From assembly GCF_000744255.1 (NCBI RefSeq), contig NZ_JQLO01000001.1, positions 682,001-746,000 on the forward strand: DNA of 64,000 nt. Reading direction: 5' to 3'. The notes beneath the pieces were generated by a model. It made no database searches, had not been told where the DNA came from, and saw only the letters and a list, made by a program, of their open reading frames with translations. This document shows positions 53,460-56,640 of this stretch, in pieces. The first letter of the stretch is position 1, and every line of letters begins with the position of its first letter. The position numbers were made by a program, and so were the translations under genes. Origin of the DNA: Carnobacterium divergens DSM 20623 (GTDB taxonomy: Bacteria > Bacillota > Bacilli > Lactobacillales > Carnobacteriaceae).

Positions 53460-53488
53460 TTGACGAATCAATTTTTGAACACTATACT
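53460..53488 (+). promoter_or_regulatory. mgtA promoter upstream of the M-box
   Basis: TTGACG (53460-53465), a 17-base spacer and TATACT (53483-53488) place the start near 53495, just before the riboswitch. Confidence 0.85.
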
Positions 53489-53494
53489 AAGCAC

Positions 53495-53769
53495 GTAAAG
53501 AAAATTAAATACACGCTTCTGTTAGGTGAGGCTCCTATATGGAAATATGCTGCTGCCCAAAAACATCGAGAGATGCCAATGGGTCAACAAGTTTGATCGA
53601 ATTAAGGTCATTTTTAACGTAGCTGATGAATAATCTACGCCATATAGTGCTAAAGCTCGATGATGGAGAAAGTATAAGTGGTTTATTTTGGTGCGCTTAT
53701 CTTGTGATGTGATGGTTTAGATGAAACTTTCCAAGCACATACTCTGTTATTTGAGTATGTGCTTTTTTG
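53495..53769 (+). promoter_or_regulatory. M-box (Mg2+-sensing) riboswitch with expression-platform terminator
   Basis: The aptamer is recognisable from its conserved strings: GTTAGGTGAGGCTCCTATAT (53521-53540), ATGCTGCTGCCCAA, ATCGAGAGATGCCAATGGGT and CAACAAG, followed by the peripheral arms to about 53700. A strong terminator (AAGCACATACTC with GAGTATGTGCTT, then T6, 53733-53768) forms the off switch: high Mg2+ folds the aptamer and allows termination. The downstream gene is an Mg2+-importing P-type ATPase, so sense and target agree. Exact aptamer end and antiterminator are not resolved by eye. Confidence 0.93.
53733..53768 (+). terminator. M-box expression-platform terminator
   Basis: A 12-bp perfect stem (53733-53744 with 53753-53764) around an eight-base loop is followed by T. 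It ends about 100 bases before the small ORF at 53869. Confidence 0.9.
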
Positions 53770-53868
53770 TATGCATCTAGCAAAAACGGTTTTAATTTTC
53801 AATGGAAATCAGTTCAAGTAGATCTCTTGTTCTCTGGATTCCTAAACATTCAAAGCGAGGTGAGTATC

Positions 53869-53979
53869 ATGAAAAGTACGACTAAAGCAAGTGAAAATAG
53901 TGACCCTGGAAGTCAGAAGTCGAAGGAAAAGGTGAATAAACCTCCTAGTGATACTGACCATTTAACGAAGTTGGATTGA
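53869..53979 (+). CDS. 36-residue hydrophilic ORF between the M-box and mgtA
   Basis: The ATG at 53869 has GAGGTG at six bases, a good ribosome binding site. The frame encodes 36 residues rich in Ser, Thr, Lys and Asp, starts MKSTTKASENSD, and contains Pro-Pro near residue 24. It is not hydrophobic and carries no domain. It ends 48 bases before the mgtA start, and both lie downstream of the riboswitch terminator. It may be a leader peptide that tunes mgtA translation or a small MgtA-associated protein; neither is shown. Upstream extension to 53767 has no ribosome binding site. Confidence 0.55.
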   Translation: MKSTTKASENSDPGSQKSKEKVNKPPSDTDHLTKLD

Positions 53980-54027
53980 TTAGGAACTGTTCTTCTTTTC
54001 TTTTGACAAGAAATGGAGGCAAAGAAA

Positions 54028-56640
54028 ATGATGATGAATCGAAAAAAACAAATTCAAATGGAAAAAAAATCAAAAGATAACGATTTAAAAAAATTAGCTC
54101 GTCTATCTGAAAAAAAAGTAATGATAAACTACCAATCAAGCCCAAGTGGATTAAGTGAACAAATGGCAAGCAAACGTTTAGCAGAATACGGTCCAAATGA
54201 AGTAGCAACACAAAGACCAACCCCGTGGTTTGTTCTATTAGTAGAAGCATTTAAAGATCCTTTTGTGTACGTATTGGCTCTTTTAATGGTTGTATCAGCG
54301 CTAACCAATGATTTTGAAGCAAGCCTTGTAATGGGTGTGATGATTTTATTGAGTGTTGGTATTCGTTTTATTCAAGAATATCGCTCACAAAAAGCAAGTT
54401 TAGCTTTAAAAGAATTAATTGAAACAACTTGTGGAATCACAAGAGACGGAGTAACGACTGAAATCCCTATCGATGAAGTTGTTCCTGGTGATATTGTGAA
54501 TTTATCAACGGGGGATATGATTCCTGCAGATGCTCGTTTCATTTGGACAAAAGATTTATTTGTGAACCAAGCATCATTGACTGGTGAGTCAATGCCAGTT
54601 GAAAAATTAGTTAAAGTAGAAGAACCAACAGAAGAAGATACTGCTTTAGATTTAGCGAATTTAGCATTTATGGGAACCGATGTTTTAAGTGGACAAGGTC
54701 GAGCAATTATTTTAAAAACAGGAAATGATACTTTCTTTGGCGATATTGCGTCTAATGTTTCTGAAAAAAGAGGCGAAACTAGTTTTGATCGCGGAGTAAA
54801 AAATGTTAGTAAAGTGTTGATTCGTTTTATGGTTGTCATGGTACCTATTGTTTTTCTACTGAATGGTTTGACTAAAGGCGATTGGGGCCAAGCGTTCTTC
54901 TTTGCGATTGCTGTAGCAGTTGGTTTGACGCCTGAAATGTTGCCAATGATTATTACAAGCAATTTAGCAAAAGGTGCTATCAAAATGTCTAAGAAAAAAG
55001 TAATTGTAAAAGAACTCAATGCCATTCAAAATCTAGGGGCAATGGATATTCTTTGTACAGATAAAACTGGAACAATTACAGAAGATCATGTTGTACTTGT
55101 TAAACACGTTAGTCCAATTGGTGATAACTGTAAAAAAGTTCTAGATTTAGCATTTTTAAATTCTAATTATCAAACAGGTTGGAAGAATTTAATGGATCAT
55201 GCTGTTATTAATTATTATGAAGAAAATAAATTGGCACAAAAAATAGGGCATGTTGAAAAAATTGATGAGATTCCATTTGATTTTTCTAGACGTCGTTTAA
55301 CAGTAGCGGTCAATAATGAGGGTCATCAGTTAATGATTACAAAAGGTGCCGTAGAAGAAATGATGAAAATCTGTTCTCATGTGGAAATTAATGATGAAGT
55401 TGTTCCTCTAACTGAATCGTTGCGAGAAAAAATGTTGACAGTTAGTGTTGATATGAATCAAGACGGTATGCGCGTGCTAGGTGTTGCCTATAAAAAAGAT
55501 GTTCATGATACAGCAATCTATAGTATTGCAGATGAAAATGAAATGATTTTAGCTGGTTTTATGGGATTTCTTGACCCAGCAAAAAAATCTTCCATCACAG
55601 CTATTAAATCTCTACATGAACATGGCGTAACGGTAAAAGTTTTAACTGGAGATAATGAAATTGTTTCACAAAAAGTCTGTAAAGATGTAGGGATTGAAGT
55701 AGGACAAGTTTTATTAGGCAATGAAATCGAAACGATGAGTGACGAAGCATTAATGGAAGCTTCAGAAAAAGTCAATCTTTTTGCTAAGCTAAATCCGATG
55801 CAAAAAGCACGTATTATTGCTCTTCTTCAGAAAAAAGGTCATACTGTTGGGTTTATGGGAGATGGAATCAATGATGCACCAGCTTTGCGAAAAGCAGATG
55901 TTGGCATTTCTGTTGATACGGCAGCAGACATTACAAAAGAAGCAAGTTCAATTATTTTACTAGAAAAAAGCTTAACAGTTTTAGAAGATGGTGTATTAGA
56001 AGGTCGGACGGTCTTTGGCAATATGATGAAATACATTAAAATGACAGTTAGTTCTAACTTTGGGAATGTTTTTAGTGTATTAGTGGCAAGTGCCTTCTTA
56101 CCGTTTTTACCAATGCTTTCTATCCAACTTCTTGTTCAAAACTTGATTTACGATGTTGCTCAATTAACGATTCCGTGGGATCGAATGGACGAAGAAGACT
56201 TAATGAAGCCAGCTAAATGGAATACAGGCAACTTAATGAAATTTACATTATCGATTGGACCAATTAGTTCCATTTTTGATATTCTGACCTTCTTATTAAT
56301 GTACTTTGTCTTCCATGCAAATACAGTAGGCAATCAAGCGTTATTCCACTCTGGTTGGTTCGTTATTGGATTGATTACTCAAACAGTGGTTGTTCATATT
56401 ATTAGAACAAAAAAAATTCCGTTTATTCAAAGTATGGCCAGCATACCTGTAACGATTTCGACAATTTGTGTGATTGCGATTGCAATTCTAATTCCTGATA
56501 CAGCTCTAGGTGGATTTTTTGATTTTGTTCCTCTACCAATGGCTTATTGGAAATGGATGGTTCTAATTGTACTTGCATATGGAGTTGCAGTTCAATTAGT
56601 TAAAACAATCTATATTAAAATTAATAAAGAGTGGCTTTAA
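54028..56640 (+). CDS. mgtA: Magnesium-transporting P-type ATPase
   Basis: This P3B-type ATPase imports Mg2+ when it is scarce. The start is the ATG at 54028 (870 residues), eight bases after GGAGG; an ATG at 54013 overlaps that site. Features: actuator loop LTGESMPVEK, the fourth helix AVAVGLTPEMLPMI (P-E-M of MgtA/MgtB), phosphorylation motif MDILCTDKTGTITED (Asp about residue 350), nucleotide-binding domain with TKGAVEEM, and hinge GFMGDGINDAPALRKADVGISVDTAAD. About ten transmembrane helices. It is controlled by the M-box upstream and ends in a terminator. A close family member in the E. coli type is of similar size. Confidence 0.95.
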   Translation: MMMNRKKQIQMEKKSKDNDLKKLARLSEKKVMINYQSSPSGLSEQMASKRLAEYGPNEVATQRPTPWFVLLVEAFKDPFVYVLALLMVVSALTNDFEASLVMGVMILLSVGIRFIQEYRSQKASLALKELIETTCGITRDGVTTEIPIDEVVPGDIVNLSTGDMIPADARFIWTKDLFVNQASLTGESMPVEKLVKVEEPTEEDTALDLANLAFMGTDVLSGQGRAIILKTGNDTFFGDIASNVSEKRGETSFDRGVKNVSKVLIRFMVVMVPIVFLLNGLTKGDWGQAFFFAIAVAVGLTPEMLPMIITSNLAKGAIKMSKKKVIVKELNAIQNLGAMDILCTDKTGTITEDHVVLVKHVSPIGDNCKKVLDLAFLNSNYQTGWKNLMDHAVINYYEENKLAQKIGHVEKIDEIPFDFSRRRLTVAVNNEGHQLMITKGAVEEMMKICSHVEINDEVVPLTESLREKMLTVSVDMNQDGMRVLGVAYKKDVHDTAIYSIADENEMILAGFMGFLDPAKKSSITAIKSLHEHGVTVKVLTGDNEIVSQKVCKDVGIEVGQVLLGNEIETMSDEALMEASEKVNLFAKLNPMQKARIIALLQKKGHTVGFMGDGINDAPALRKADVGISVDTAADITKEASSIILLEKSLTVLEDGVLEGRTVFGNMMKYIKMTVSSNFGNVFSVLVASAFLPFLPMLSIQLLVQNLIYDVAQLTIPWDRMDEEDLMKPAKWNTGNLMKFTLSIGPISSIFDILTFLLMYFVFHANTVGNQALFHSGWFVIGLITQTVVVHIIRTKKIPFIQSMASIPVTISTICVIAIAILIPDTALGGFFDFVPLPMAYWKWMVLIVLAYGVAVQLVKTIYIKINKEWL

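Follow-up and report, generated by a model that had tools for sequence, protein, structure and literature searches.

A conserved leader ORF between the M-box riboswitch and mgtA of Carnobacterium divergens is a probable translational attenuator

A 36-codon ORF lies between the M-box Mg2+ riboswitch and the mgtA gene in the window analysed here (the whole stretch of DNA under study, 64,000 nucleotides from Carnobacterium divergens DSM 20623), and it probably encodes a cis-acting leader peptide that serves as a translational attenuator of mgtA, forming a second layer of control beneath the M-box. In the computational analysis, the ORF, its Shine–Dalgarno (SD) sequence and an acidic/Pro motif were conserved, the RNA was constrained and had two competing states, and the motif was in register with the switch point. 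The original prediction had proposed either a Gram-positive second layer of control or a small partner protein; the former is supported by the conservation of the frame, the SD, the acidic/Pro motif and the alternative pairings over M-box/mgtA leaders. The broader reading, that Bacillota mgtA is placed under stacked Mg2+ sensors on one RNA, with the M-box deciding transcription and the acidic/Pro leader making the ribosome a Mg2+ sensor that gates translation, is held tentatively, its chances being close to even in our judgment.

All features of the window listed here are on the forward strand. The leader ORF (53869–53979, ATG to TGA; translation MKSTTKASENSDPGSQKSKEKVNKPPSDTDHLTKLD) was identified as an open frame that has homologues between M-box and mgtA elsewhere, and its SD (GAGGTGA, 53857–53863) is present in the same or an equivalent form in relatives. 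The mgtA gene (54028–56640) encodes a Mg2+-type P-type ATPase, relatives of the same type having been found, and has the SD GGAGG at 54015–54019; since its ATG is at 54028, 48 bases separate it from the leader stop. Upstream, the M-box aptamer (53511–53676) scored 135 bits (E 2.7e-31) with the covariance model RF00380, whose gathering score is 44, and was the single M-box detected in a scan of the whole genome. It is followed by an intrinsic terminator (53733–53764) consisting of a 12-pair stem and a T run, and preceded by a promoter-like site (TTGACG-17-TATACT, 53460–53488; 10/12 in a consensus scan), which is weak because the scan found 5 sites compared with 3.2 in shuffles. The first layer is thus an ordinary M-box (ykoK) riboswitch with its terminator; the Rfam family does not include the putative second switch that follows, and no Rfam family scored above threshold in 53680–54100, where there were sub-threshold chance matches only. 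These results confirmed the predicted anatomy, namely a 36-codon frame with a good ribosome binding site located after the M-box terminator and 48 bases 5′ of mgtA.

Conservation within the genus was examined in three genomes. The peptide of congener G002 was identical to that of the window; over the leader SD and ORF, only 1 of 125 bases differed, and none within the ORF, compared with 11/178 differences (6.2%) in the linker 5′ of the leader and 68/983 (6.9%) in mgtA. Congener G001 encodes MERKATKDSSDPGSQMLQEKLSRLTDAHLSKIE in the same place behind the same SD, and alignment revealed a shared core, SDPGSQ...EK. The acidic/Pro motif SDPGSQ occupies codons 11–16 (53899–53916) and is supported by this alignment and by the drop in SD accessibility past the motif described below; it contains D12 (53902–53904) and P13 (53905–53907), the proposed pause or drop-off site, and E9 is a further early acidic codon. 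The original prediction had emphasised a Pro-Pro pair (codons 25 and 26, 53941–53946). This pair was rejected as the key feature, since it is missing in G001 and in other genera; the conserved element is instead Asp12-Pro13. When phages, plasmids and 59 relatives were searched with the window peptide, G002 alone was recovered, and nothing from other genera reached E <0.1. A weak match in the genome G018 was dropped as it lies on the opposite strand of a gene reading like ribosomal protein S4.

To extend the comparison, M-boxes were scanned in the family and the order (210 of 296 genomes for the order) and the downstream DNA was taken; with named mgtA loci from GTDB genomes added, the final set comprised 132 distinct M-box/mgtA leaders, nearly all from Bacillota. 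SD-led ORFs of 12–60 codons were counted, and dinucleotide shuffles and 69 M-box leaders not preceding mgtA served as controls. An SD-led small ORF was present in 97 of the 132 leaders, an acidic/Pro motif in 52 and an acidic residue at positions 2–4 in 70, compared with 27.8 ± 4.4 (maximum 37), 1.2 ± 0.9 and 7.2 ± 2.7, respectively, in the shuffles; since the leaders are phylogenetically related, these counts are not independent trials, but the gap from expectation is still large. The corresponding numbers for the 69 M-box leaders without mgtA downstream were 23, 7 and 9. Where there is room between the M-box and mgtA, most loci carry an SD-led small ORF that usually has acidic residues and often Pro near its start. 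Compact leaders (about 75–110 bases from M-box to mgtA) had no leader ORF. In the conservation check proposed with the original prediction, the reading frame and SD thus recurred in many genera at a frequency beyond chance.

The conserved element of these leaders is Asp/Glu-Pro within codons 2–14. Examples of the SD-led ORFs, not all of which have Asp/Glu-Pro, are the leader peptides of Carnobacterium jeotgali (MEISSSNDSPGDDFW...), Isobaculum melis (MQSLVVVKDNPDPSSQ...), Granulicatella seriolae (MRSLMIENDNSDHSSQ...), Tetragenococcus solitarius (MEDPQSKCK...) and Enterococcus casseliflavus (MEYPSPQM...); further leaders begin MDESPVYKE..., MDDSPAEKK..., MEDSSHGRS..., MGDDPQNNK..., MIQIDDHPEPH..., MSRSTNEPKEPGSS..., MPSLFAESDPDSS... 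and MAHHQEDEVEEPDSY..., and EEPDSY-type leaders occur in one genus (g12). M-boxes are present in most clostridial mgtA loci according to Rfam, and the M-box/mgtA leaders of Clostridia, Acholeplasmatales and a Victivallis bin start with MD[ATS]G, MDPSS or MDEE. The clostridial leaders with MD.GS starts are without the acidic/Pro motif and may work differently.

Folding of the window leader predicted two competing states. Arm 1 (GGTGAGTATCAT, 53859–53870), which includes the leader SD and start, pairs with arm 2b (GTGATACTGACC, 53948–53959) in the 3′ part of the ORF. Arm 3 is the segment after the leader stop (53992–54007); its part CTTCTTTTCTT (53992–54002) pairs with arm 4 (AAGAAATGGAGG, 54008–54019) and thereby masks the mgtA SD. 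In the alternative state, arm 2a (GTCGAAGGAAAAG, 53919–53931, codons 17–21) captures the arm 3 part CTTTTCTTTTGAC (53995–54007) through 13 contiguous pairs. The two states were near isoenergetic, with predicted energies of −38.2 kcal/mol for 1:2 plus 3:4 and −39.6 kcal/mol for 2:3 in the window, and −40.9 and −40.8 kcal/mol, respectively, in G002, where a change of CTTCT to CCTCT in arm 4 keeps the pairing by replacing U-G with C-G.

The layout in which the leader SD and start pair with the 3′ part of the ORF, and the post-stop segment with the mgtA SD, was recurrent in the folded leaders. Among 93 leaders, the strength of the 1:2 pairing surpassed that of synonymous recodings (mean z −1.95, with 67% below −1.64), and that of the 3:4 pairing surpassed base shuffles (mean z −1.68). 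The 2:3 pairing had a mean z of only −0.85 overall and exceeded synonymous recodings in 27% of leaders; the alternative formed by codons 17–21 and arm 3 was seen in the window and its neighbours, with z values of −3.5 for the window, −4.0 for G002 and −3.3 for L017. When arms were swapped among 24 genera, cognate arms paired better for 1:2, 2:3 and 3:4, with 0 of 5000 permutations as good to printed precision, a result to which base-composition differences between genera may add.

The register between the motif and the switch was evaluated by moving-ribosome folds, in which only the RNA ahead of the ribosome was folded, the leading edge was set 15 bases from the first base of the P codon, and mgtA-SD accessibility was read at each codon position. 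In the window, accessibility was about 0.5 up to P13 (0.54) and fell to 0.33 at G14 and 0.06 at S15, although accessibility fell similarly around codon 13 in some synonymous recodings of this ORF, as its Lys and Glu codons are purine-rich anyway. A fall was also observed in G001 (0.97 at P12 to 0.23 at G13), L116 (0.40 at P13 to 0.03), L079 (0.66 at P11 to 0.08), L114 (0.98 at H13 to 0.43), L050 (0.45 at Q6 of DDPQ to 0.18) and L073 (0.38 at D3 to 0.00). The switch point tracked the motif in these leaders and in others, even though the position of the motif ranged between codons 2 and 14; in L091, L034 and L013 the profile was flat or the drop was elsewhere. Drops of at least 0.2 occurred in 57% of 53 representatives versus 18% of synonymous recodings, and in 24 of the 53 the drop was larger than in all eight of their own recodings (5.9 expected). 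Asp, Glu and Pro were enriched in the last permissive codons (1.17 versus 0.70 per three residues, p 0.001), and with a lower threshold an Asp/Glu-Pro whose Pro occupied the P site coincided with the switch in 7 of 40 leaders, compared with 1.08 expected. This calculation was adopted as the better test and was run after a cruder distance test had failed: in the latter, 16 of 37 leaders had the motif within the expected distance of the helix versus 11.4 ± 2.2, a weak excess, and motif position and the start of the 2:3 helix were uncorrelated overall (Spearman about 0).

These features suggest the following mechanism. In the known first layer, high Mg2+ would fold the M-box and stop transcription at 53733–53764, so that the leader ORF would be transcribed only at low Mg2+. 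With no ribosome on the transcript, the leader SD would be masked by the 3′ part of the ORF (1:2) and the mgtA SD by the post-stop segment (3:4). A ribosome that pauses or drops off at D12-P13 would clear arm 1 while leaving codons 17–21 free to sequester segment 3 (2:3), and the mgtA SD would thereby become exposed. If the ribosome instead read through, it would cover codons 17–21, allowing 3:4 to form and closing mgtA. The likely trigger would be Mg2+-sensitive destabilisation of the ribosome by acidic/Pro nascent chains, as for enteric mgtL and mgtQ. Translation of the leader ORF, faltering of the ribosome at the motif, low Mg2+ as the cause and this sign of the effect are inferences.

The closest working model is mgtQ of Salmonella, a short ORF with Asp2 and Glu5 whose RNA alternates between stems 1:2 plus 3:4 and stem 2:3, the mgtB ribosome binding site being in 3:4 (PMC8092293); its acidic codons were shown experimentally to be needed for mgtB translation (PMC8092293). 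The window leader is likewise a short SD-led ORF upstream of a gene for a Mg2+ P-type ATPase, with early acidic codons and the same stem scheme, and its predicted energies give the same exclusive choice between 1:2 plus 3:4 and 2:3, with the transporter SD in 3:4. Whereas mgtQ is an 8-codon ORF situated between mgtC and mgtB, under PhoP/PhoQ control and with no riboswitch in front, the window leader has 36 codons and belongs to a 5′ leader that follows an M-box in a Gram-positive bacterium. The two do not appear orthologous, as the mgtC–mgtB location is absent and the peptide search recovered nothing from other genera at E <0.1. In mgtL, the leader ORF of enteric mgtA, ribosomes drop off at EPDP when Mg2+ is low (PMC11282234). 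The window leader resembles it in being an mgtA leader ORF with an early Glu/Asp-Pro motif and a proposed Mg2+-linked drop-off signal, and differs in that the motif is at codons 12–13 rather than 2–5 and that the layout points to mgtA translation, whereas mgtL acts on transcription via a Rho-dependent terminator. The comparison with mgtL made in the original prediction was apt, except that translation attenuation of the mgtQ type, not proline sensing, is the nearest model. Since the anatomy is shared with mgtQ and drop-off at EPDP is known for mgtL, we propose an attenuator in which the ribosome would falter at D12-P13. In erm- and cat-type attenuators, the position of a ribosome on a leader ORF selects stems and exposes a downstream SD after drug-dependent arrest. 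The window leader is similar in its predicted ribosome-position switching; those attenuators answer antibiotics, and there is no sequence relation. No paper on a leader ORF behind an M-box was found in the open-licence literature.

Simple translational coupling, in which ribosomes ending the leader would open the mgtA-SD hairpin or reinitiate and the peptide sequence would be irrelevant, is a rather unlikely explanation. It accords with the position of the stop, 48 bases before mgtA, from which a terminating ribosome could reach region 3, and with accessibility rising again just past the stop (L001, 0.62; L006, 0.62; L079, 0.89; L237, 0.93), but it leaves unexplained the conserved acidic/Pro motif, the arms within the ORF that compete for region 3, and the register of motif and switch point. 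In some families the leader ORF ends 16–23 bases 5′ of mgtA or overlaps it; 3:4 is therefore impossible there, and leaders whose stop lies 16–23 bases from mgtA may use coupling instead. A stall peptide with the same RNA design that answers a signal other than Mg2+, such as proline supply, EF-P/ABC-F status or general translation stress, appears still less probable. The motifs are Asp-Pro or Glu-Pro, EF-P and ABC-F proteins of B. subtilis are reported to resolve stalls at difficult motifs (PMC11381351), and EttA acts on mgtL (PMC11282234). Against such a signal, the leader is tied to the Mg2+ riboswitch and mgtA and not to other M-box genes, and the acidic residues are as constant as the proline, which several motifs (MDDSSQ, MEDSSH) do not contain.

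The possibility that the RNA hairpin alone is conserved, the ORF being an untranslated by-product, is very improbable. The strong RNA constraint inside the ORF would fit it, as would the modest coding signal of the leader ORFs (pN/pS 0.65 in 18 close pairs versus 0.94 ± 0.19 for random placement, 10 of 500 being as low, and 0.76 in another frame), which would also be anticipated were just a short stretch of the peptide important. However, the SD, start, frame and stop are kept over many genera while the hairpins vary, the amino acids of the motif are kept with varied codons (GAC CCT, GAT CCT, GAA CCA, GAG CCT and GAA CCG), and the window motif lies outside arms 1 and 2. The other role suggested in the original prediction, a trans-acting small MgtA partner protein similar to MgtR or MgtS, is barely credible for this ORF despite its position beside mgtA and the occurrence of a different, single-membrane-span ORF just 5′ of mgtA in L031, L035, L043, L044 and L047. 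The window peptide is rich in Lys, Ser, Asp, Thr and Pro and hydrophilic throughout, without the membrane segment of the membrane partners MgtR, MgtS and MgtU; neither it nor the other acidic/Pro leader peptides matched Pfam or NCBIfam (E up to 1); leader peptides of different genera do not align outside the short motif, which alone is conserved; and base pairing shapes the 3′ half. The peptide seems to be disordered, and any activity it has would be that of a nascent chain.

If the reading of stacked Mg2+ sensors is true, the leader layer would have arisen convergently with mgtQ and mgtL of enteric bacteria and would represent a Gram-positive regulatory use of ribosome destabilisation by nascent chains. 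A riboswitch is usually taken to control its downstream gene on its own; in several Gram-positive families, a widespread one appears to be backed by a ribosome-based switch for the same ion. A possible role of acidic/Pro nascent chains as Mg2+ sensors outside enterics becomes directly testable, with dozens of natural variants for mapping the co-evolution of pause site and RNA pairing register. The leaders also point to a set of short genes absent from the family libraries searched (Pfam, NCBIfam and Rfam).

Several other small ORFs were observed in the leader set. L035, L043, L044 and L047 have a second small ORF just before mgtA that encodes a single-membrane-span peptide (e.g. MSELTIFLLFLGVGCFLWGIFYGKKVKKNDRKK), and in L031 and L074 the single-span ORF was read as the beginning of mgtA itself; this peptide, which differs clearly from the leader peptide, is a candidate partner of MgtA. 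In L014, the mgtA frame behind the M-box leader appears broken early (MLNKETDLYTKKSKNNQLKKLGYL..., with a stop after 50 codons). Behind the M-box of L086 and L087 there is a solitary ORF of 46 codons, hydrophobic at its start and containing an acidic/Pro stretch (..SEDFDPHPT.. and ..LDEPDPT..), with no larger same-strand gene in the 1.5 kb read and, in L086, a terminator-like hairpin after the ORF, so it possibly encodes a Mg2+-controlled small membrane protein. In L103, L106, L190 and L196, an SD-led DPG-type ORF (MTTEIIDPGASSKHQST..., MTAEVYDPGSSSKHQSS...) follows the M-box, with no mgtA or other long same-strand frame within the next 1.5 kb. Finally, two genomes (L018 and L019) carry an SD-led MDSIPSCRQMK... 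ORF before an mgtE-like gene under an M-box, so genes other than mgtA may also have leader ORFs.
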